Shown piece by piece: positions 1 through 48,081 of a DNA stretch of 64,000 nt. A model generated the notes under the pieces. The model worked only from the letters and a program-made list of their open reading frames with translations. It did no database searches and had not been told where the DNA came from. This DNA comes from Artemia franciscana. Taxonomy: Eukaryota; Arthropoda; Branchiopoda; Anostraca; Artemiidae. Each line of letters begins with the position of its first letter. Positions within the stretch are counted from its first letter, which is position 1. The DNA is taken from positions 22,935,637 through 22,999,636 of the forward strand of contig NC_088883.1 in the NCBI RefSeq assembly GCF_032884065.1, written 5' to 3'. The position numbers and the translations under genes are program-made.

Positions 1-1160
1 TCGTTTTCGACAAAATAATACTACGTATTCTCAGCACCGTCTTCTTGATCGTTTTCGACAAAATAATACTATGTATTCTCAGCACCGTTTTCTTGATCGT
101 TTTCGACAAAATAATACTACGTATTCTCAGCACCGTTTTCTTGATCGTTTTCGACAAAATAATACTATGTATTCTCAGCACCGTGTTCTTGATCGTTTTC
201 GACAAAATAATACTACGTATTCTCAGCACCGTTTTCTTGATCGTTTTCGACAAAATAATACTACGTTTTTCAGCGCCGTTTTCTTGATCGTTTTCGACAA
301 AAAATACTACGTTTTTCAGTGCCGTTTTCTTGATCGTTTTCGACAAAACAATACTACGTTTTTCAGAGCCGTTTTCGACAAAATAATACTACGTTTTTCA
401 GCGCCGTTTTCTTGATCGTTTTCGACAAAATAATACTACGTTTTTCAGCGCCGTTTTCTTGATCGTTTTCGAAAAATAATACTACGTTTTTCAGCGCCGT
501 TTTCTTGATCGTTTTCGACAAAACAATACTACGTTTTTCAGCGCCGTTTTCTTGATCGTTTTCGACAAAATAATACTACGTATTCTCAGCACCGTTTTCT
601 TGATCGTTTTCGACAAAACAACACTACGTTTTTCAGCGCCGTTTTCTTGATCGTTTTCGACAAAACAATACTACGTTTTTCAGCGCCGTTTTCTTGATCG
701 TTTTCGACAAAATAATACTACGTATTCTCAGCACCGTTTTCTTGATCGTTTTCGACAAAACAACACTACGTTTTTCAGCGCCGTTTTCTTGATCGTTTTC
801 GACAAAACAATGCTACGTTTTTCAGCGCCGTTTTCTTGATCGTTTTCGACAAAACAATACTACGTTTTTCAGCGCCGTTTTCTTGATCGTTTTCGACAAA
901 ATAATACTACGTTTTTCAGCGCCGTTTTCTTGATCGTTTTCGACAAAACAATACTACATTTTTCAGCGCCGTTTTCTTGATCGTTTTCGACAAAACAATA
1001 CTACGTTTTTCAGCGCCGTTTTCTTGATCGTTTTCGACAAAACAATACTACGTTTTTCAGCGCCCGTTTTCTTGGTCGTTTTCGACAAAACAATATTACG
1101 TTTTTCAGCGCCGTTTTCTTGATCGTTTTCGACAAAACAATACTACGTTTTGTCAGTGCT
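1..1160 (+). repeat. 47-48 bp minisatellite array (about 24 units)
   Basis: Head-to-tail units begin with TCGTTTTCGACAAAA, continue with a TAATACTACG core and end CCGTTTTCTTGA. There are two variants: one with TATTCTCAGCA (48 bp) and one with TTTTTCAGCG (47 bp). The 48-bp type dominates the start and the 47-bp type the middle, with interspersed switches that suggest unequal exchange or conversion. Because 48 is a multiple of 3, open frames run through the first units (45-287 and 71-415), but these encode only the repeat and are not genes. The array runs off the left window edge. Its right end passes into a fold-back arm at about 1160, and the same unit forms the core of the element at 45090-45510. 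Confidence 0.95.
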
Positions 1161-1330
1161 AAAATTATATATAATAAGGTTTGCTTAGTTTAGGTCTAAA
1201 AGGGCCTAAATTTGAGTGTGCGGTAGAAGCGATTATTATATTCGTAAAGAAAATAAAAAAGGCATCGAGTGGTATGTTCACTTTATTGGTAAGTTAGTTA
1301 CATGAACTGCGAAAAATTTATCCCAGTAGA
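1158..1330 (+). mobile_element. Arm of fold-back (inverted-repeat) element flanking the minisatellite
   Basis: After the last array unit the sequence CAGTGCTAAAATTATATATA leads into about 150 bp containing GAAGCGATTATTATATT, GGCATCGAGTGGTATGTTCACTTTATTGG and a GAACTGCGAAAA-type end. The same succession occurs twice in opposite orientations at 45090-45228 and 45368-45510. This marks the segment as one terminal inverted-repeat arm of a fold-back element whose other arm would lie left of the window. No coding capacity is visible. The outer end is approximate because the similarity fades near 1330. Confidence 0.7.
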
Positions 1331-3147: not shown

Positions 3148-5164
3148 CTAAGTCTCCTGCTGGGCACTGCTCGGCGTAGAGAGTGGTGTCTGCCTTCTCC
3201 ACCCGCTTCGGTCTATGGCGAGTATTGGCTCTTCGCCCTGTCTGTTGTTTGCCATAGCCAAGAACTCGGACAGGCTGTCGGACCAACGTTTCTTCGGTCG
3301 GCCGCGAGGTCGCTTCCAACCAACTTTGATAAGGTCGAAGTCATAGATCATCTTTGCGGGTAGATGTGGTGGCATTCGAAGCAGATGCCCGAACCATCGT
3401 AAGGTTCGCTCGGCTGCTTGAGTCGAAAACCAAGACTGCTTTGTGAGCTGCAGAAGCTTTTCATTGCTGACGAAGTCGGACCATCGTAGGCCCTCAATCC
3501 TCCTCAGGCTCTTTGCATGAAATACGTCTATTTTCTTGAGGGTTGTAGCTGATGCTTGCCATGTCTCAGCTCCGTAAAGCATCACAGAGCCGACTAGAGC
3601 GTTGAAGATCCGCAGTTTCGTTGTGCGACTGATATTTAGTTTTCGCCATAGGTGACGATTCAGTCTACCCATGACAGAAGACGCTTTAGATAATCTTGCC
3701 TGCAGCTCGGGGAGAAGTGAGCCATTTGAAGAAATTACGGAGCCCAGGTAGGTGAAGTCTTTAACAACCTCGATGCTAGTGGTGCTGTCCAGGCTAACTG
3801 GAGAGTTAACAGCAGGAGAAGACGGGTCTATGGCCATAATTTTAGTTTTGTTCCAGTTTATATGCAGTCCTACTTTGGCAGCCTCTTTTCGCAGAATTCG
3901 GAGCGCTTCCAGCAGCTGCTCCATGGAGTCCGCCAGAATGGCCAAGTCATCGGCAAAATCGACATCTGTGATGGTATGATCTCCGAATTTGAGTCCAAAG
4001 CTGAGACGTGAAGTGGTTTTTGTCATAACGTAATCTATGATGACATTAAAGAGCTCTGGGGCCACTGCACATCCTTGGCGCACCCCTGTCGTGATTTGAA
4101 AGAACGGGCTGCGCCGACCATTTACTTGTACACAGCTCTCCGTCCCATGGTGCAGCGCCTTGAGAAGTCTGCAATATTTCTCGGGTAGGCCAGTCAACTC
4201 TAGAATCTGCCAAAGAGCTTTTCGATCGACTGAGTCAAATGCAGCACGGAAGTCAACAAAGGCAATAAATGCTTTCTGTCGGAACTCTGTGGTCTTCTCT
4301 ACTATTTGTCGAATCGTGAAAATCTGCTCAATGATTGAACGATCCGACATAAAACCAGCTTGCTCCGGTCGCTAGATTTTTCGAATGATGCTCCGACATC
4401 GATCCAGCAGGATCATTGAAAACAGTTTGCCAGGGACTGACAGTAGGGTTATTCCCCGGTAGTTGGAGCAGTCGCTTCTCGAGCCTTTTCTCTTCCATAA
4501 GGGGATGATGACACCCTTCCGCCAATCCTCGGGGATTATCTCTGTTTGCCAGATTGTAGAGAACAGGGTGTGTAGAAACAGGAGCATTGCAGGACCTCCA
4601 TATTTTAGCAGCTCTGAGTTTAAGCCACAGATACCAGCAGCTTTATTATTCTTGAGTCTTTTTACTGCATGTCCAATTTCTGAGGGGCTGAAAGGCTCAT
4701 CTGGAGGAACATATGTTCCAGGTCTTTGACTGCAAGGTTGGCTGGGACTATCATTAGGAGGCACAGACGGACCAGTATTGTTGAGGAGCGAACAGAAGTG
4801 GTCCTTCCACCGCTCCAGACAAGAACCTTCGTCAGAGAGAAGTGCACCATCCCTGGACAGGACGGGTCCCAAGGTGGGAGTTTTATTTTTAGTGAGGTCT
4901 CGGAGATGCTTGAATAGGCTGCCCATGTCTTTCTTTTTTTGCAGCTAGCTCAATTTCATCGGCTTTCCTTGCGACAAACTGGGTTCTATCCCGGTGAATG
5001 AGTCTGTTCCGCACTCCATTGAGCCTCCGATATGTGGTCATGTCCCCAAGAAGTCTTGCCTTCCGTCTTTGCTCTATGACTTGCAGTGTTTCATTAGTTA
5101 GCCACGATTTCTTTGGATAACTCCTCTTGCCAAGCACTAGTTGTGCTGCTTCACTGGTCTGCAA
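3148..5164 (-). pseudogene. LINE reverse transcriptase domain, frameshift plus one stop
   Basis: The linker frame at 5164-4889 shifts at an A-run (about 4929-4936) into 4926-4372. That frame runs on to 3148 interrupted only by one TAG at 4372-4374, just before RPEQAGFMSDRSIIEQ. RT motifs in order: ITLLSVPGKLF, RPEQAGF, FVDFRAAFDSVDR, GVRQGCAVAPELFN and the catalytic VDFADDLAIL. The C-terminal region has MLYGAETWQ, FGHLLRMP and RGRPKKRW. The RT would copy the element RNA at the nicked target. Few disabling changes suggest a fairly recent insertion. Confidence 0.88.
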
Positions 5165-6077
5165 TTTAAAATGCTTCCAGAGATCTTCGCTGCTATAAGT
5201 GAGCTAAGGGCCTCGAAGCGATTCGATATCTCGATACTGTACTTCTGGCGAGTATTTGGTTCCTTTAGTTTCCCAATATCTGCAGCGACGGGTTTTCTTT
5301 TCGATCGTTGTGCATGGAGGCGAAGCCGAAGATCGGCGCACACAAGCCTATGGTCTGCGTTTCCAAGCTCTGCTGATCTGTAAGTTCTGCAGTTCTTCAC
5401 CAATGATCCCCAGCGTTTGGAAGTAATGACGTAGTCAATCATCTTCTTTGTACGACCGTCATTACTATACCACGTGTACTGATGAATAGTTTTGCGTTGG
5501 AAGTAGGTGTTTGCAATGTAAAGGTCGTGAGATCGGCACAGTTCAAGTAAGCGGAGCCCATTGTCGTTAAGTGGGTCGGGGGATACAGGACCAACTGTGC
5601 CACGCCATAAACCCGTATCATCGCGCACTGTCGCATTAAAGTCGCCAAGGAGAACAGTTATATCACGGGGGGTACTATTGCAAGGCATCTGGACAAAGCA
5701 GAGTAGAAATCCTCCTTAGTCGCATCATCAGAATCGTTGGTTGGGGCATAGCATACGATCACAGTCATCTTGCCATGCTTGTGTCCAAAGCGGGCCTTCA
5801 TTAATCTGTCAGATACAGCTTCGTGTAAAAGTAAGACCTTTCTTGTAAGGCTATTTAGTGCAAGGCCAACACCATTCCTTCTCGAGCTTCCTCCAGCCCA
5901 GAGCAATGAGTCACTGTTCCCTATTCGCTCTTCTCCGCTTCCGGTAAGACGTGTTTCTGTAAGACCTGCAATTGACACTTTATTCTTGCGAAGTTCTTCA
6001 GAGAGTAGGTTCTTTGACGCAGGTGCATTCAAAGTCAAGACATTCCAGGTGGCTATTCGTAGCCCCCTTTGGTCCAT
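5137..6077 (-). pseudogene. LINE endonuclease domain, frameshifted
   Basis: The N-terminus MDQRGLRIATWNVLTL is the start of an endonuclease/exonuclease/phosphatase fold (RIATWNVLTLN motif). GLTETRLTG follows, then, after a frameshift in a C-run near 5664-5670, LLGDFNATV (the GDFNA motif), and finally GNADHRLV (the catalytic DH motif). In the intact family this domain nicks target DNA to prime reverse transcription. A second frameshift near 5190 moves reading to the frame that continues at 5164-4889. The start at 6077 was chosen because the ATG immediately precedes the conserved WNV motif. Confidence 0.85.
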
Positions 6078-6329
6078 AAGGTTTAGTCTATCAGTCTTTC
6101 TGACGTCGTCAGCATGTCCATTGACGCGCGATGGTCGAGATCTTAAAAGGGAATCCGGGTCCGAGGCTATATTGTCACTTTTCGTAGCACTTAATTTTCG
6201 GGTGGAGGGTCGCTAGCCCAACCGACCCTAGGCCTGGAATCTGATTAGAGCTAGGTTAAACCTAGGTACTGAGATTCCAGGGGTGGGCTCCACCCGCCAC
6301 ATGAGGTTGCGGCCGTCCTGATCGGAGTG

Positions 6330-13740: not shown

Positions 13741-14960
13741 GAGATTGAGCAAACCTTTACTAACACTATTAACAACTCGCTTAGATAGAAAGCCACATGA
13801 GGTGACCACAGCTGCACACCCTCTCCGTTTACTCCCAAGTTTGTTCGAAGCTTTACTCTTTACACCCTGCTATTCCCAAGCATATGAAGTGAGGTCAAGC
13901 AAAGCTCTACTGCTGGTACTAACAGCTCACTGAGGCAGCAAGTCCTATGTGGTGAACACAGTTGTGTAACCTCGCATTCCACTCCCAGTCCATTCAAGGC
14001 TTTGCTCTTTACTCCCTCCCGTCCCTAAGCATATGAGGTGAGGTCGAGCAAAGCTTTAATACTAGTACTAACAGTTCACTGAGGCAGCAAGTCCTATGTG
14101 GTGAACACAGTTACATAACCTACTCCTCCACGCCCAGTACATTCAAGCCTTTACTCTTTAATCCCTCCTGTTCTCAAGCATATGAAGTGAGGACGAGCAA
14201 AGCTTTACTACTACTACTGACAGTTCACTGAGGCAGTAAGTCCTATGTGGTGAACACAGTTACGCAACCTCCTCCTCCACTCCCAGTAAATTCAAGCCTT
14301 TACTCTTTAGTCCGTCTCGTTCCCAAGCATATGAAGAGAGGTCGAGCAAAGCTTCATTACTACTACTAACAGTTCACTGAGGCAGCCAGTCTTATGTGGT
14401 GAACACAGTTGAGTGACCCCCTCCACTCCCAGTCTATTCAAGTTTTTACTCCCTCCCGTTCCCAAGTATATGAAGTGAGGTTGAGCAAAGCTTTACGACT
14501 ACTACTAACATCTCACTGAGGTAGCAAGTCCTATGTGGTGAACACAGTTGCGTAACCTCCTCCTCCGCTTTCAGTCCATTCAAGTCCTTACTCTTTACTC
14601 CCTCCCGTTCCCAAGCATATGAAGTGGGGTCGAGCAAAGCTTTATTACTACTTCTAACAGTTCACTGAGGGAGCAGATCCTGTGTGTTGAGCATAGTTAC
14701 GTAACCTTCACTCCCAGTCCATTCAAGGATTTACTCTTTACTCCCTCCCGTTCCAAAGCATATGAAGTGAGGTCGAGCAAAGCTTTACTACTACTACTAC
14801 TAATAGCTCACCGAGGCACCAAGCCACATAAGGCCAACACAGCTCGACACGCTGCTCCTCCTCCCCCAATCAATTCAAGGCTGGACTGTTTACCCCCCTT
14901 CGACGAAGTTTCCGTTTCCTTTAATTCCTTTCGTATGACTTCTTCGCATTTGGCGACGAC
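13740..14960 (+). repeat. About 150-bp tandem repeat array, roughly eight units
   Basis: The phrase GAGGTCGAGCAAAGCTTTA or a close variant recurs near 13745, 13890, 14039, 14191, 14338, 14478, 14628 and 14770, about 140-152 bp apart. Each unit continues with ACTACTAACAGTTCACTGAG, a GTCCTATGTGGTGAACACAG box, a C-rich stretch and CCCTCCCGTTCCCAAGCATA. The last unit runs on to GCGACGACCTGCTTTTTGTT and resembles 11790-12010, so the array probably grew from one end of a dispersed element. Trinucleotide ACT runs at unit starts vary in length. Confidence 0.9.
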
Positions 14961-20081: not shown

Positions 20082-20526
20082 ACTGCAACTCTGCAGTACA
20101 GCTGTTTAGCTGCAATTCTGCAGTACAGCTCTTCAGCAGCCACTCTGCAGTACAGCTCTTCAGCTGCAACTCTGCAGTACAGCTCTTCAGCTTCAACTCT
20201 GCAGTACAGCTCTTCAGCTGCAACTCTGCAGTACAGCTCTTCAGCTGCAACTCTACAGTACAGCTCTTCAGCTGCAACTCTGCAGTACAGCTCTTCAGCT
20301 GCAACTCTGCAGTACAGCTCTTCAGCTGCAACTCTGCAGTACAGCTCTTTAGCTACAACTCTGCAGTACAGCTCTTCAGCTTCAACTCTGCAGTACAGCT
20401 CTTCAGCTGCAACTCGGCAGTACAGCTCTTCAGCTGCAACTCTGCAGTACAGCTCTTCAGCTGCAACTCTGCAGTACAGCCCTTCAACTGCAACTTTGCA
20501 GTGCAACTATTCAGCTGCAACTCTGA
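20082..20526 (+). repeat. 27-bp minisatellite, about 16 units
   Basis: The unit is CTGCAACTCTGCAGTACAG followed by CTCTTCAG. Variation is low, mostly single substitutions such as GCTTCAACT or ACTCGGCAG. As 27 is a multiple of 3, long open frames exist on both strands: 20025-20594 plus encodes TLQYSSSAA repeats, and 20506-20069 minus encodes ELYCRVAAE repeats. Neither has a non-repeat domain, signal peptide or splice context, so I treat it as a minisatellite rather than a gene. Nearly every unit holds the palindrome CTGCAG. Confidence 0.93.
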
Positions 20527-24570: not shown

Positions 24571-24737
24571 CATATAGATCTACAGATCAACATTCGTTAA
24601 ATTAAGTTATAAAGTGATTAACTTCGGTCATATGTAGTATGATCATTATGTAGTACGGTCCTATTACCATGTCTTTCATCTAGCCAGCACTTTACGCAGG
24701 AAATTTGTAAAGTTTAATTTTTATCCCACCTGTCTCC

Positions 24738-24783
24738 CACTTGGTACATGGGCATCCACTCCTGGATGCCCATGTACCAAGTG
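24738..24783. repeat. Perfect 20-bp stem palindrome at LINE 5' junction
   Basis: CACTTGGTACATGGGCATCC (24738-24757) and its exact complement at 24764-24783 enclose the 6-nt loop ACTCCT. The LINE coding sequence becomes recognisable immediately afterwards. Confidence 0.9.
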
Positions 24784-26665
24784 TACAAATACACAAACAA
24801 AATGATTATAGGAGGATCAACAAAGAAATCAAGAAAAGTGCATGGACAGATAAGAGAAACTACATTGAGCAAAAAATAACACAAGCCGAAGATGCAGCGA
24901 AGAGAGGAGACTCGAGGACCCTTTATAAACTAACGAATGAAATAATAGGCAAGAAACCGATTCAAGATGGACCTGTAAGAAATCCTGATGGCGTTCTCAT
25001 CACCAAGCGATCGGCTATTGATGAAACATGGGCCAACCATTTTGAACAGCTTTTGAATAGACCACCGCCTGATGAGCTTCTAGTTGTACCCTCTATAGCT
25101 TTCCTCAAGCTTGACATCAATACAGAACCCCCGACTCTTGACGAATTACTAACAGCCGCAAAGAAATTAAAAAACGGCAAGGCACCAGGCGAAGACCGTA
25201 TCACGGCGGAGTTGATAAAGGCATCAATCAGTTCATGCATATCTATATGGCTGTCCTTGTTCCGAAAAATTTGGATGACACAAAAAGTACCAACAGATTG
25301 GAGGCGCAGCACACTCATAAAACTCTTCAAAAAAGGCGATAAGACAATACCTGGGAATTGGAGAGGTATTAGTCTCTCATCCACACATGGCAAACTTCTT
25401 TCACTAATAATCCTTCACAGAATACAGAGTCCACTTGACAAGTACTTGAGAGAAAAGCAACATGGTTTTAGACCAGGACGTTCGGGTACCGATTTGATCT
25501 TCACACTAAGGATGTTAATTGATGATAGCCGAGAATGGCAAAATAAATTGTACATGGCATTTATAGACTTTGAAAAGGCCTTTGACTCGCTGCATCGGGA
25601 GACTCTATGGAAACTACTAACCTTTTATGGGATCCCTGAGAAGTTAATAGCCCTGAGAAGTTAATAATGGCTCTATACGAAGAATCTGAATGCTGTGTTA
25701 AAACAACAGAAGGAAGGACAAGATACTTTCGTGTCCTTTCCGGTGTTAAACAAGGCTGTGTCTTGTCACCTTTCCTGTTTGCGTTAGCCATTGACCATCT
25801 GCTCCGTAACACTGGCACCAGAAGCATACAATTAAACGTAGAACACCAAATTAATGATCTAGACTTTGCCGACGATATCACGCTTATTGAGTCCCGTAAA
25901 CAAAGACTACAAAAATTTCTAGAAGATGCACGTGGCAGAGGCCGACTTATGGGACTAAGAATCAACGCTGATAAAACAAAAAGTATGGCAGTAACCGATT
26001 CGCCTCTACACCTGAGATGCGATAACCAGGACATTGAGCAGGTTCTAGAATTTAAATATCTCGGGAGCACAGTGTAAAATACGGGATCAACTGAAAAAGA
26101 TACATCATGCCGCATTGGGCAGGCCTCCGGCACATTCAATAGACTGAAACCGATATGGAGGTCGCAGAATTTCTCCCTCCGACTCAAGCTTCGTCTATTC
26201 AATAGCAACGTCATCCCCGTCCTGTTATATGCTTCCGAAACCTGGCATCTGAATAACACGCAAGAAAGGCGAATTCTAGCTTTCGAGAATATATGTCTCC
26301 GGAGAATACTAAACATCCATTGGTCACAAAAAATATCTAATGAGAAGGTGAGACGGATGACGGGACAATCCATAGTGACAGATATCATTAGGAGACGTCA
26401 GTGGAAATACTTGGGGCATGTACTTCGTATGGACGATTCCCGGATCCCGAAAGCGATGTTCCAGAGGCAACCAGAAGGAAGAAGAAGAAGAGACAGGCCG
26501 CGCAATACACTGCGGCTCACCTATCAGACGGACCTGCGAAACATAAATGCTTCCCTTCAACCGGCGTGGGAAGTTGTCCTTGCTGCGGCGCACATGAGGG
26601 ATGGCTGGCAGCTTCTCGTTGATGCCCTGGGCGCCTCTGGAGGCACAGGAGGATCTAAGGTCTAA
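24784..26665 (+). pseudogene. LINE reverse transcriptase, one duplication frameshift and one stop
   Basis: Motifs in order: KNGKAPGEDRITAELIK, VPTDWRRSTLIKLFKKGD, NWRGISLSSTHGKLLS, KQHGFRPGRSGTDLIF and AFIDFEKAFDSLHRETLW. After the shift come VLSGVKQGCVLSPFLF, LDFADDITLIES (catalytic Asp pair) and EFKYLGSTV. At 25632-25664 the 17-nt segment CCCTGAGAAGTTAATAG is tandemly duplicated, changing frame between IPEKLI and MALYEE. A TAA at 26075-26077 interrupts the frame after YLGSTV, and reading continues with VLLYASETWHLNN and the tail to 26665. Only two lesions suggest a relatively young copy. Confidence 0.88.
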
Positions 26666-43400: not shown

Positions 43401-46151
43401 TAACATGGAAGCCTCTGCTGCTAAAGAATCAGCCATATCATTATATTTGATGCCTTTATGACTTGGAACATGTTGGAAATAAATCTGATTGCCATTAGTC
43501 TTAAGATTAAGAAGTTGTCTTCTAATATTATATGAATCCTTGTCATTGGTAATTCTATTAATATTTTGGAGCAATAGTAATGCTGATTTGCAGTCAGAGA
43601 GACAGAGTATATTTTCAGATTCTATGTTATAATTTAGAAGTGCATCCAGGGCCAGGTGAATGGCACATAATTAAGCAAATAAAATAGAATATCCCAAATG
43701 GGAGCAGAGAATAGATATTCAAATTCAGGGATGGGATACACGCTCCTACTCCATCTCTCTTCCTCTGGACAGATCCATCTATATATATTTTTCTATGATT
43801 AGGGTACACCTTTGAGATCTGTTCAGCCAAAATACACTGGATCTCATCAGCCAGACCTAATCATGGGCATACTTCTATCTTTTGTCTAGCCCAGTAGCTA
43901 TTTCATTGATCATGAGGACAAAGCATAAGAAACCAATCACTGTTCCTTGTAAAACACTGCTTAAAACTGGCAAATAGAGGGAAAATTATTTTTAAAATTT
44001 GTTTCTAGTTTATCTAAAAAAAAAACTGTTTAAATATCAATAAGATATTCAGGAATATGTATCTTTGTCAGATTTTTCAGTAGAATCTTGGGATAAACAA
44101 AATCAAAGATTTTTCAGATATATTACAATCAAATTTATCCCTTTCCTAGGCTTGTTTAGATGTTTTAAAATGAAATCAATTAAACTAATTATATAGTGAA
44201 CAGTTGAGCACTTCAGAATGTTAATAAATTACTTTTTATTAATTAGTTCTGAAAGATATTTTTTCTTAACCTTAAAGCAACAAACTCTCATAAACTCCAC
44301 TTAAGACCATTTTGAGAGTCATTCAAATTGATAAAGTTCTAGTTGATGGGCTTCATGTAATCATGGAAAGTAGCCAGGTTAGGTGATGAAAAGGTTAGGA
44401 AAAGTAGCTAGGTCTGAATCTATGGTCTAAAATATACCTGGGAAAGTTGCTATCAAGCTAATCCAATCTTTACCCTTTCCTTATTTCCAAAGCTTAGAAG
44501 ATTACATAGATGACAGGTCTAAATCCATCTAAATTTTGACAAAAGAAAACAAACAACATTTTACTTCAACTTTGGGTTTTTGGTCTCTTTTTCACTGGCA
44601 CAAGTTTTTGAAGATATAGTTTCTGTTATTTCAGCAGAATTTTAGATAATATCAAGTCTTTTCCTTTAAGTTAAAGAAATTGATTCTCTGATCTTTAATA
44701 CCTAATAGGCACAGGCTAAATGAGGACTGAGCAAAGATATAAGGCTAAAACAATTTCCTTGTATCTCATTTCAGTAGTAGCCCTTATGTCTATTTCTCCA
44801 TGTTTCACTTTTAAAACAAAGATTCTAAATGGTCATCAATAGTCAATGCTGTATGAAGAGGAGAGGCATGGAGGTTCAAAGGTATGATTAAGGCTCTATG
44901 AGAGTTTTATTCACTTTCCTGAACTGGGCTACTTCCAAAGATGGACAAAAGCTATCTTCTTAATTCTATCAGCCAAATTTATCCTGATTCCTCATCTGCA
45001 CTTGCTTCATAACACTAAACAAAGCCAATTTGAAAAAAGTACCAGCATTGGCCTAGTTTTGAATATAAGCCAAGGCTACACAATACTAGGGTGAAAGGTA
45101 ATTTTTTTGCAGTTCATAGGCTATAAAAGTGAACATACCACTTGATGCCTATTTTTATGTTCTTTACAAATATAATAGTTGCTTCTAGGTGCAAATTCCA
45201 ATTTAAGCACTTTTTGACCTAACCTTATTATAAATAATTTTAGCAGTGAGAAAATGTAGTATTATTTTGTCAAGAACAACCAAGAAAACAGCACTGAGAA
45301 AACATAGTATTATTTTGTAGAAAAATAAGTGATAGGCTACTCATACTTTAGTTGAAAATTCATCATTTTTAAGAGCTTAAAAAGTGCTTAAATTTGAATT
45401 TGCAGTGGAAGCAATTATTATATTATTGAAGAACATAAGGCATCAAGTAGGCTATTATGTTCACTTTATTGGTAAGAAAATTATACAAACTGTGGAAATT
45501 TTACTGGGTGTAGGTCTAGTTTAGTGGCTATGTGATAAAAGCCTGTTAAGATAATTCTTTTTACTTCATAGTATGCAGAATAATTATAGCTAATGCATTC
45601 TTGATATATCTCTGCTATACTTTACTACCTCCCTAAAGTACAAACATATAGCCAAAGTTAGATATTTCCCTTTCATTCACCCAATGTGTCTTTCTTGTTT
45701 CAACCCATGACCAGTAAATTAAACAACCACAACAAAAAAGATCCAGAAAACAGGTGACAAGTGGCAAAATGCATAGCAAATAAATAGGCTAATTTTGATT
45801 AAATATTTACTCACTAGTGGGGAAGAGGGTAAAGTCTAGCAGGCCTGCAAGCAAAATGTGTTTGCTACAATTATTCTGCATAACATATTATGAAGTAAGA
45901 ATAGTTTTTTAAACATGTTTCCTTCTCAATAGCCCCCAATCTAGACCTATATCTAGCCCCATAAAAGATAGGGGGCAGATATGTAAGTGCAATGACACCA
46001 ATTATTATATTTAGAAAGATAACTGAATGGAGGAATTAACAACATGTTTGTCTTAAGCCACCGTTTAACCTAACCAAACAAGCGTTCTTTCTACCAATTT
46101 TACCTCATCCCCAATAACTGCAATTAATCTTCCTCTAGCAACTGTAGCCAT
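34334..46151 (-). CDS. Vha14: V-type proton ATPase subunit F, four of probably five coding exons
   Basis: Coding exons on the minus strand: 46151-46104, 38957-38876, 37679-37597 and 34456-34334. All have AG acceptors and GT donors, and the phases agree (0, 1, 0). Joined they give 112 residues, against about 120-125 in the family; only the short C-terminus (usually GMFNPEDMVR-like) is missing and may lie below 34334 or outside the window. Subunit F is part of the central stalk of the V1 sector. It couples ATP hydrolysis to rotor movement and so to acidification of endosomes, lysosomes and secretory vesicles. Introns are about 7.1, 1.2 and 3.1 kb, and intron 1 carries many transposon fragments. 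Residues are strongly conserved throughout, so this looks like a functional gene. Confidence 0.93.
34650..35230 (-). pseudogene. LINE C-terminal fragment with internal duplication
   Basis: The minus strand encodes [19 protein letters not shown] followed by a second copy of the same phrase ([16 protein letters not shown] in the shifted frame, near 35060-35000). [21 protein letters not shown] and a region ending [11 protein letters not shown] come next. The ETW...LRILRI-type succession is the post-RT region of LINEs. The roughly 100-bp segment carrying it is present twice (35110-35190 and 35000-35070). It sits in intron 3 of the V-ATPase F gene, same strand. Confidence 0.7.
35330..35570 (+). 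mobile_element. MITE-like inverted-repeat element, copy 2
   Basis: GACAAATGACGGGTGACAGAATGCATTG matches the 24330-24350 segment. TTTGGGCTATATATTTGC (about 35458) and its complement GCAAATATATAGCCCAAAT (35532-35550) form an inverted repeat around TAGGAGGATGGGGGTTAGG and CTTAACCCCCACCCCCTA. No coding capacity. Confidence 0.65.
36365..36785 (+). pseudogene. LINE 3' end (post-RT region), plus strand
   Basis: Read with frame changes, the plus strand gives [16 protein letters not shown], then [45 protein letters not shown] and [21 protein letters not shown] followed by K(R)GRP is the C-terminal signature of LINEs without RNase H. It is oriented opposite to the V-ATPase F gene, in its intron 3, and is a 5'-truncated dead copy. 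Confidence 0.75.
36790..37596. other. V-ATPase F intron 3, no other gene seen
   Basis: Contains a short palindrome AACGCTCGGAGCGTT near 36810 and four repeats of AAATCCGTGT(A/C)AA at 37020-37095. No exon recognised on either strand. Confidence 0.5.
37597..37679 (-). CDS. Vha14: V-ATPase subunit F exon 3
   Basis: A T-rich tract and AG at 37681-37680 precede 83 bp encoding (S)[19 protein letters not shown] and DIILINQN, followed by the strong donor GTAAGT. The [18 protein letters not shown] segment is almost invariant in animals. Confidence 0.95.
38020..38315 (+). repeat. Direct repeat pair in V-ATPase F intron 2
   Basis: Segments 38026-38130 and 38170-38315 share ATCTCCAG(A/G)C, a GTATTTTGAACCATCTTGCAG or GTATTTTGAACAATCTTGCAG box, AGGGGTT and GA(C/G)(A/G)A(A/G)ATAGGCTTGGTATGT. 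The second has a run of about 19 A at 38233. Confidence 0.8.
38876..38957 (-). CDS. Vha14: V-ATPase subunit F exon 2
   Basis: Acceptor TTTCTAG (38960-38958), then 82 bp encoding [17 protein letters not shown] and [10 protein letters not shown], ending phase 1 with donor A|GTATGTCT. The [10 protein letters not shown](I/V)GE box is a hallmark of subunit F. Confidence 0.95.
39290..40030. mobile_element. MITE-like element with GTAAGGAGC(A/G)AC terminal inverted repeats
   Basis: GAAAGTAAGGAGCAACATTAAAAC near 39320 and, inverted, GGGTCGCTCCTTACTACAG near 39987 bound about 680 bp. Internal phrases such as ACTTAAAAAGGGCACTAGAACTT recur at 29715, 29990 and 42190, so it is a dispersed family. I recall similar sequences from brine-shrimp DNA but cannot verify this. 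An open frame at 39864-40196 overlaps the right end and is incidental. It lies in intron 1 of the V-ATPase F gene. Confidence 0.7.
40030..41010. other. V-ATPase F intron 1, part; no gene seen
   Basis: 40860-40950 has AAGAGCTCATGTGGCACTTGTGATAAGGTCAGAAGAGCC, the reverse complement of a segment at 58290-58345. It therefore belongs to the dispersed family at 41010-41940 and 58090-58350. The rest is unassigned. Confidence 0.55.
41010..41940 (+). repeat. Three diverged tandem copies of a 250-380 bp dispersed repeat
   Basis: Copies start at about 41010, 41390 and 41810 with (GTCAG/GTTGG)GATTTGA(G/A)ATAAGAGCTCTGAG or a variant. They continue with CCTTCTA, ATCA(A)ATTTCATTAAGATC, a CCATTCTTAAGTTAAAAATA box and a TTTCCAAGATTTCTG...CCCC end. 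A further partial unit begins near 41650. One inverted copy lies at 58090-58350. Non-coding, within V-ATPase F intron 1. Confidence 0.8.
42040..42540 (+). repeat. Dispersed repeat related to the 39290-40030 element
   Basis: CTCCAGTAGCTTTTGGTCTTAAGAAAGGGCACCAGAACATCCAACTTTCA matches the CTCCAATTTTTTTGGTCACTTAAAAAGGGCACTAGAACTTTTAATTTTC phrase at 39530. Open frame 42282-42521 is incidental. Confidence 0.6.
42950..44170 (-). pseudogene. LINE with RNase H domain (I/Jockey-type), 5'-truncated
   Basis: Upstream on the minus strand an RT end is recognisable ([11 protein letters not shown] region near 44040-44080). 43830-43627 gives [21 protein letters not shown], the first RNase H1 motif with catalytic Asp. 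43574-43305 gives [25 protein letters not shown], the later HVPSH.GI..N..AD motif. Below this, 43240-43130 encodes a C-x2-C...[13 protein letters not shown] zinc-knuckle-like tail. RNase H would remove the RNA strand after reverse transcription. Stops and frame changes make it non-functional. It lies in intron 1 of the V-ATPase F gene, same strand. Confidence 0.8.
44170..45088. other. V-ATPase F intron 1, part; no gene seen
   Basis: AT-rich unassigned sequence. No repeat of other window parts noticed except at the right edge, where the fold-back element begins. Confidence 0.5.
45089..45510. mobile_element. Fold-back element: inverted arms around two minisatellite units
   Basis: The left arm 45089-45228, read on the minus strand, and the right arm 45368-45510, read on the plus strand, both give AAAAAGTGCTTAAATT(G/T)GAATTTGCA, a GAAGCAA(C/T)TATTATATT box, AAAGAACATAA, GGCATCAAGT and TATGTTCACTTT. 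Between them, 45241-45330 holds two units identical in type to the 47-48 bp array at 1-1160 (minus orientation). Arms are about 140 bp. It has no coding capacity and lies in V-ATPase F intron 1. Confidence 0.85.
45530..45935. mobile_element. MITE-like inverted-repeat element, copy 3
   Basis: CTTTTTACTTCATAGTATGCAGAATAATTATAGC (about 45568-45600) is inverted at 45868-45905 (GCTACAATTATTCTGCATA, ATATTATGAAGTAAGAATAG). Internal phrases CTTTCTTGTTTCAACCCATG and TAAAGTCTAGCAGGCCTGC, AAGCAAAATGTGTTTGCTACA are shared with 51525-51890 and 24370-24440. No coding capacity. Confidence 0.75.
46104..46151 (-). CDS. Vha14: V-ATPase subunit F exon 1 (start codon)
   Basis: ATG at 46151-46149 in the context TCAAAAGATGGC begins [16 protein letters not shown], which matches the family's GKLISVIGDED start. 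The donor GAG|GTAAAA follows at 46103-46102. Exon length is 48 bp, phase 0. The 5' UTR presumably extends into about 46152-46200. A hAT element begins only about 270 bp further upstream. Confidence 0.92.
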
Positions 46152-46418: not shown

Positions 46419-48081
46419 CAGGGCTTCCACTTTTAGGGAGAAATCACTTTTTTGAGGGATATTTGTTTTGAATATAGGGAGAATCTGGGGTAAAGTAAGG
46501 ATTTTCAGGGAAACCTGAGGTAAAGTAAGGACAAGTCACTGCATCAAACAAGTCATTGAAAAAAGCTCGATTCCCTAGCAAAATATTGCTGGATTTTGTG
46601 CAGATACTGCTAAACGTTATGTTTGGAGCCAATAAATCTGCTTAAGCACTAATGAAAGCCATCGTGCCTCATATCATGAATATGAAATGCTCGTGCCATT
46701 TTATTCACTCATGTTCATCCTATGCATGCTTGTCACCTCTCCAGACACTAGAAGACTTGGCACGAAATATGTATGCCCGCTTTTTCCAGGAGTGCTTCCA
46801 GGCGAGATAAGTATGCAGAATTTCAATAGTTCTTTGGATGCAAAGCCCTCCCAATTTTTTTCACTAGGACAGACCCGTCGATTATCCCTTCAAGCCTGCA
46901 TAAAGAGGCTTATTGAGCACCGGGTTGCTCCTACTGATTATTTCATAGAAACCACATCTGACGACCCAACTATAACCAATGACCTTATCTTGTCAACATT
47001 ACAAAGCTAGTTGACAAAGCCATACCTTGAATTTATGGACTACTCTCTTGGCCTCTCTAATGAACTCAATACAGTTTTTCAATCTGAGCTTCCACTTCTG
47101 CATTCCCTAAAGGGAAGTGTCAGCAAACTTGAATGATGTTGCGTCTAACTTCATAGAACTAGACTATTTTTACAGTGTTGGTTTGTTCACCAAATGAATC
47201 CTTACCTTTCAAGTGAGTAACTGCCTTTAAACCAGACATATGTGGGAATAGCTGCAACCGATTCAATGCAAGAACTCGTAGAAGCTCAAAGGCCAAGTGA
47301 TAATATTTATCTTTTTTACCGGTCGTGTCGAAACTATTATATAGTCTAATGAATCAGGTTCGAGACCGTTTCAAGTTTGAAGACGAAATTTATGAGATTT
47401 TGGCATCGGTTAAACCAAGGAGTGTAAGAAATTTGAAGCCAAAATCTCTAAGGCCACTATTCGCGAGACTTCCTGTTCTAACAGAAAAGTGTTGCGTCCA
47501 AAACACTGACATAGAATGGGGATCTCAGGTAATGCCCAATGTCATTGAGCTTTATTTGGGAGACACTCAAGTTGAAGACCTGTCAGTTGGGCAGTACTGG
47601 ATGAAGATACTTAGTCTGAAGACTCGCATTGGGGAAATCAAGTACCCAGAATTGCGAAAGTGCATATCAATGATCTTTTCGTTACCCTTTAGCACTGTAC
47701 CAGCTGAGCGTTTGTTTAGTCTCCTGAAATTAATCAAAACAGACATTCGAAATAGTTTCGAGAACGTTACACTAGTCTCACTTATTCGATTCAAGACGAA
47801 AGCAAACGCTACGTGCGATGAAGTGCTGGAGATGACACTTACTTGAGCTTTTTTATGCGTTCTCGATAGTGTAAATCATTTTATGTATATCATTATCTGA
47901 AGTAAAAAATAACACTTTGATTCTACGTTACGTTTTTCGTGTAGATTGTATGCAAATCTAAGGCAAAATATCTCTTTTTTCTTGGGAGAAAAATAAGGAG
48001 AAATCAGATCTAAAGACAAGGAATTTTAGGGAAAATTGATATAAAAAAAGGGAAAATTGAAACAGAAAAGTGGAAGCCCTA
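46419..48081 (+). mobile_element. hAT-family DNA transposon, 1.66 kb, with ends and target-site duplication
   Basis: The left end CAGGGCTTCCACTTTTAGGG starts at 46419, and the right end AAAAGTGGAAGCCCTA stops at 48081; they are inverted repeats differing mainly at the outermost base. The element is flanked by ATCCGGAT (46411-46418) and TTCCGGAT (48082-48089), an 8-bp target-site duplication with one mismatch, as expected for hAT. GGGAGAAATCA inside both ends extends the inverted similarity. It carries a broken transposase and is shorter than autonomous hATs, so it is an internally deleted or decayed copy. Confidence 0.9.
46687..47846 (+). pseudogene. hAT transposase C-terminal half, frameshifted
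   Basis: 46687-47010 encodes RRLSLQACIKRLIEHRV...LILSTLQS. A frame-shifted middle follows (KPYLEFMDYSLGLSNELNTV, FQSELPLLHSLKG). 47325-47846 then encodes the hAT dimerisation domain: YPELRKCISMIFSLPFSTVPA, ERLFSLLKLIKTDIRNSFEN, VTLVSLIRFKTKAN. The N-terminal BED zinc finger and the first catalytic Asp region are not seen. Confidence 0.85.

Follow-up and report, generated by a model that had tools for sequence, protein, structure and literature searches.

The window analysed here, a stretch of 64,000 nucleotides from Artemia franciscana at C21:22935637-22999636, opens inside a minisatellite and raises the question of how such an array came to be there. The first-pass annotation noticed that the array is followed by an arm that recurs, inverted, on both sides of a core at 45089-45510, and proposed that a MITE-like fold-back transposon was here linked to the birth of a minisatellite. 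The window, 8 kb to its left and a search of the assembled genome (1,270,528,402 bases in 6,468 contigs) bear this out, and we regard the locus as a clear example of a minisatellite born from a transposon. As an explanation of the whole, it is highly probable that a duplication common to the family was expanded at this one locus, probably after insertion and by repeated unequal exchange.

Within the window, the right-hand part of the array occupies positions 1-1156 (+), where TRF finds a period of 47 and 24.7 copies of a unit of 47/48 bp. With the left flank added (the stretch L009, in which window position equals L009 position minus 8000), the array extends 2,021 bp further left, and TRF gives 67.7 copies of 47 bp at L009 5980-9156 with no N, which places the array among minisatellites, with their tandem units of about 10-100 bp. 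Its content is 67 units and one partial, two of the 67 being shortened, to 35 and 37 bp. The focal right arm follows at 1157-1322 (+), ends CGAAAAATTTATC and shares 148 of its 162 aligned positions with the family consensus. The arm missing from the window, which the first-pass annotation had suggested seeking on the left, is present there (L009 5808-5979; 156 of 172 positions as in the consensus), and its portion at 5810-5932 is inverted with respect to the right arm at 88.6% identity over 123 bp. Outside the arms stand the two copies of an 8-bp target-site duplication, TCAGTAGA at L009 5800-5807, outside the window, and CCAGTAGA at window 1323-1330 (+), identical at 7 of 8 positions. Since this duplication encloses both arms and the array, they form one element: left arm, 67 units and a partial, and right arm are a single element of 3,515 bp (L009 5808-9322), the left end of which reads GT where the family ends read GG. 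The array borders lie at the same places as the borders of a normal core on both sides, with 3,095 bp added between them.

A normal-sized member of the same family lies in the window itself, at 45097-45505 (-), and is an ordinary copy of the MITE family to which the focal element belongs. It is 409 bp long, matches the family consensus at 356 of 396 aligned positions, has the unit twice in tandem in its core (at about 45247-45324; 1.62 units in the core count, where it is listed as L029) and is flanked by imperfect 8-bp repeats that agree at 6 of 8 positions, GGGTGAAA at 45089-45096 (+) and GGGTGTAG at 45506-45513 (+). The fold-back at 45089-45510 shows inverted pairs with 90% and 87% complementarity and a 29-nt repeat present twice at a spacing of 48 bp. 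Window 1079-1320 matches 45324-45099 with the core included (E 1.6e-45), and a second match pairs window 1198-1320 with 45380-45503 (E 3.7e-20). The focal right arm is thus found inverted on either side of the core of the normal copy, just as had been claimed.

The family consensus, built from 57 copies after setting aside six loci present twice (L040, L068, L077, L078, L081 and L083), is 419 bp long with inverted ends GGTAAATTT...AAATTTACC, and copies show a mean identity to it of 88.0%. It has the attributes of a MITE: it is short, has terminal inverted repeats, is too short to code for a transposase, is inserted with a target-site duplication of fixed length and, by the count of arm tags, is present in high copy number. 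Compilation of 112 arm ends gave ends of the type GGTAAA...TTTACC. The target-site duplication was examined in copies from L010-L058 minus L040, where 42 pairs were found and 34 used, eight having been dropped for an unrecognisable end or too short a flank. Flank identity at 8 bp was 0.768, against 0.315 in mismatched pairs, and was much lower at 7 bp (0.445) and 9 bp (0.422); the flanks were identical at 7 or more of 8 positions in 17 of the 34 copies (0.06 expected), among which L031/L038 and L052/L056 are probably duplicates of one insertion each and so not independent. A 36-bp arm tag had 1,975 genome matches at up to 3 mismatches and its reversed control none; each element having two arms, copies number on the order of a thousand or more. 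Sampling of this population was by a fold-back query (2,931 first-look candidates, 40 scored) and a right-arm query (2,282 candidates, 40 scored), in addition to two queries made from the array.

Several further observations concern the family at large. With the six duplicates again left out, 9 of 72 loci have two or three copies of the arm in tandem, 136-164 bp apart (L033, L043, L045, L051, L053, L054, L055, L072 and L086), which indicates that amplification can affect the arms and not just the core; two of these loci, L054 and L055, are an apparent segmental duplicate pair. Five exact arm-tag matches on one strand, 7.3-8.3 kb apart (C12:3625733-3657961), suggest a large tandem duplication carrying a MITE copy. 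Among the 57 dispersed copies, C-to-T or G-to-A changes occur at 30.4% of consensus CpG positions (542/1,781) versus 8.6% elsewhere (456/5,289), an excess such as CpG methylation would be expected to give. The array at L009 5980-9156 retains its CpGs, with an observed/expected ratio of 3.0; for the part of the window that starts at 1401 the ratio is 0.58.

Arm and unit occur together elsewhere in the genome, the unit being present in 80 of 83 arm pairs at other places; the three remaining (in L030, L048 and L057) scored below 40, had no recognisable core and were left out, the six loci present twice are the same as above, and no arm pair came from L016, L022, L059, L062 or L066. Of these cores, 52 came from loci found with a query containing the unit (array or fold-back), with a median of 1.85 units, and 28 from the right-arm query, which lacks the unit, with a median of 1.80. 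The first-pass annotation had set 2 copies of the unit against 24 or more; the two states stand, and the figures become about 1.85 for the usual copy and 67 plus a partial for the array. Eight of the 80 cores were listed above 2 units, with a maximum of 2.69; the two of these that were checked, in L019 and L076, proved to be stretched alignments and were rejected as longer cores. In L061, counted as 1.71, a further partial unit may be present, which would give about 2.4 in all. A five-unit query (40 of 764 candidates scored) matched at full length only in the focal array, and all 39 of the 39 matches outside the focal locus spanned 81-93 bp. There was no second long array, and no array of the unit devoid of arms, among the candidates scored with the array query (40 of 717) or the five-unit query (40 of 764). 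The two states, about 2 units versus many, are thus real, with the many-unit state at one locus so far, and with 40 candidates scored per search, by which further long arrays may have been passed over, what is seen is a single expansion event as opposed to a graded series.

These counts bear on whether the direction of change might be the reverse, i.e. that a minisatellite existed first and was taken up by the MITE, as has been proposed for miDNA4, and that short copies are contractions of long ones. Contraction does occur, as shown by six cores at 0.85-0.94 unit, one unit fewer than usual, but the usual state is about 1.85 units, the array borders coincide with those of the core, and the candidates scored included no arm-less array; we consider this reading highly improbable. 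Another possibility is that the copy had already expanded before it transposed to this site, the array having arisen in another copy since lost or unassembled. A target duplication around the whole expanded element fits expansion before or after insertion alike, and would allow this, but no other long copy was found among the candidates scored (40 of 717 and 40 of 764) and sequences of the array's own B type match by tag in the focal array only, so that prior expansion appears very unlikely. Expansion after insertion is the timing that we consider probable.

The internal structure of the array gives some indication of how it grew. The 67 units comprise 19 of type A, mostly 48 bp, and 48 of type B, mostly 47 bp, and mean identity among units is 91.6%. 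All 37 genome matches of a 59-bp type B tag (up to 3 mismatches) fall inside the focal array; a shorter B-type motif was found in 1 of 57 short copies, as was an A-type motif, so these motifs are not wholly private to the array. A derivation of B from A was considered and dropped, because a final A is present in 63 of the 67 array units but in 2 of the 37 short copies that could be read, and because each of the two types has changes that the other lacks. Both types therefore seem to derive from a single ancestral unit. Adjacent units resemble each other more closely than they do when the order is shuffled (3.44 differences versus a 1% bound of 3.71). Among 49 lags tested, the 1% bound is passed at 32, 33 and 34 as well, and three pairs of units with the same rare haplotype lie 32 units from each other (P 0.0065, 2,000 permutations). 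For the string of A and B types at lags of at least 2, P was 0.066, and long duplicated blocks, defined as at least 5 successive units with no more than 1 difference, were absent at any lag tested. Support for block duplication within the array is accordingly moderate.

The number of units itself could be an artefact, given that a tandem array of 3.2 kb may be mis-sized in an assembly made from PacBio Sequel reads. This we hold to be highly improbable, for the stretch is without N, the changes borne by the units are many and varied, and the array has a normal border on either side; a wrong length would in any case leave the arms and the target duplication untouched.

Taken together, the history that we favour would run as follows. 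A 419-bp non-autonomous DNA transposon, a MITE whose asymmetric core is enclosed by long inverted arms, would already have carried in that core a 48-bp tandem duplication of about 1.85 units, and the family would have spread by transposition with 8-bp target duplications, as are seen in the sampled copies. One copy would have inserted at the focal locus, where out-of-register exchange between its two units, over many rounds, probably added about 66 units and may also have produced the local unit types, while the borders, arms and target duplication, which are observed in place today, were kept throughout. The pattern in the array is what repeated unequal exchange between two family units would leave; gain by slippage or rolling circle is also compatible with it, and unequal exchange is the mechanism that we infer as the probable one. 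Most simply, the array is a by-product of the duplication that every normal copy carries.

It is also conceivable that the inverted arms take an active part and make the core expand, by forming hairpins, stalling forks and causing template switching. In the computed fold of the consensus (RNA parameters) the arms pair with each other over some 130-140 bp, and the tandem repetition of the arms themselves in 9 of 72 loci would be in keeping with such activity, but just one long core occurs among the copies sampled, and we regard an active role of the arms as unlikely. A related and rather improbable idea is that each normal copy constitutes a seed of two units, ready for expansion and set between arms able to form a hairpin. 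Such seeds would number on the order of a thousand per genome, of which one has been seen to fire, and firing may be made more frequent by the arms. If this were true, a comparison of individuals and of Artemia species would allow one to measure the rate at which a seed gives rise to a minisatellite. The locus has value first because the state before expansion (about 1.85 units, in most of 80 cores) and the state after it (67 units and a partial) coexist in one genome, which would permit estimating how often two-unit duplications run away. Secondly, the expanded copy has kept its borders and target duplication intact, which makes it a clean example of the birth of a tandem array. Transposon seeding of satellites and minisatellites being already accepted, the gain is one of resolution and not of concept.

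The superfamily of the element was approached through its ends and target duplication, with hAT, Mutator and Merlin as candidates. Transposons of the hAT superfamily have ends of the CA..TG type; the family shares the 8-bp target duplication of hAT elements, but its ends, GGTAAA, differ from theirs. Mutator elements (MULEs) make target duplications mostly of 9 bp, with a range of 8-11, within which the 8 bp of this family falls. Merlin elements are marked by target duplications of 8-9 bp and a terminal 5'-GG (PMC8101967), and the family carries both, with 8 bp and GG ends, the focal left end itself being GT. The Merlin transposase profile PF12762 has 59 matches in the genome. Three of the 59 loci (L089-L091), each read over 2.8 kb, match one another over long stretches; in none of these stretches of 2.8 kb does the MITE consensus find a match at E 0.1, and weak matches at E up to 10 occur in L089. 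Rfam gave no match in the 64-kb window. By eye, open frames at 3148-6212 (-) and 24711-26665 (+) of the window resemble pieces of LINE reverse transcriptase/endonuclease, and a 180-aa open frame at 47304-47846 (+) resembles the C-terminal dimerisation part of a hAT transposase. The window also holds tandem arrays at 13850-14823 (about 149 bp x 6.5) and at 20083-20525 (27 bp x 16.4, open in more than one frame).

General-term literature searches found no paper on this Artemia element. Long inverted repeats that hold tandem subrepeats characterise the FB/Galileo/Tetris fold-back elements; the Artemia units lie in the core, and the element resembles that group but is not filed among it. Xstir repeats of Xenopus MITEs were reportedly described by Hikosaka and Kawahara in 2004. 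The general link between such transposons and the birth of tandem arrays was already in print (PMC4079207, PMC12628747, PMC9659126). Tetris of Drosophila virilis is a fold-back element with internal repeats of roughly 220 bp in arrays of up to 66 copies (PMC4079207). Like the Artemia element it has a non-autonomous fold-back form, target duplications (8-10 bp) and internal tandem arrays, for which unequal crossing-over was proposed; unlike it, Tetris has its repeats of about 220 bp inside the terminal inverted repeats, whereas the Artemia unit is 47-48 bp and lies in the core between the arms, in an array still enclosed by arms and target duplication (PMC4079207). The miDNA4 MITE of Xenopus tropicalis similarly contains an internal satellite unit as one monomer or a variable array, but is of Tc1/mariner type, and capture of a pre-existing tandem repeat was proposed for it (PMC12628747, PMC9659126). 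The Xstir repeats too are tandem repeats from the inside of a MITE, for which a different mechanism was proposed, excision and joining at a stem-loop formed by two nearby elements (PMC9659126, PMC12628747). Modular MITEs of the pearl family in bivalves (DTC84, CvA) have short satellite-like arrays within the element, but of up to six monomers, and are set beside the Artemia element by description and not by sequence (PMC5139131). BrickBuilt of Porphyromonas gingivalis is likewise a minisatellite within a MITE, but is bacterial, with a 23-bp unit, and forms of the element were found 19 times in one strain (PMC4596501). Seeding of tandem arrays by MITEs or transposons was thus already known from Tetris, miDNA4, Xstir and pearl; the Artemia case is distinct in that the unit lies in the core instead of the arms, that arms and target duplication are kept, and that one expanded copy stands among copies of two units.
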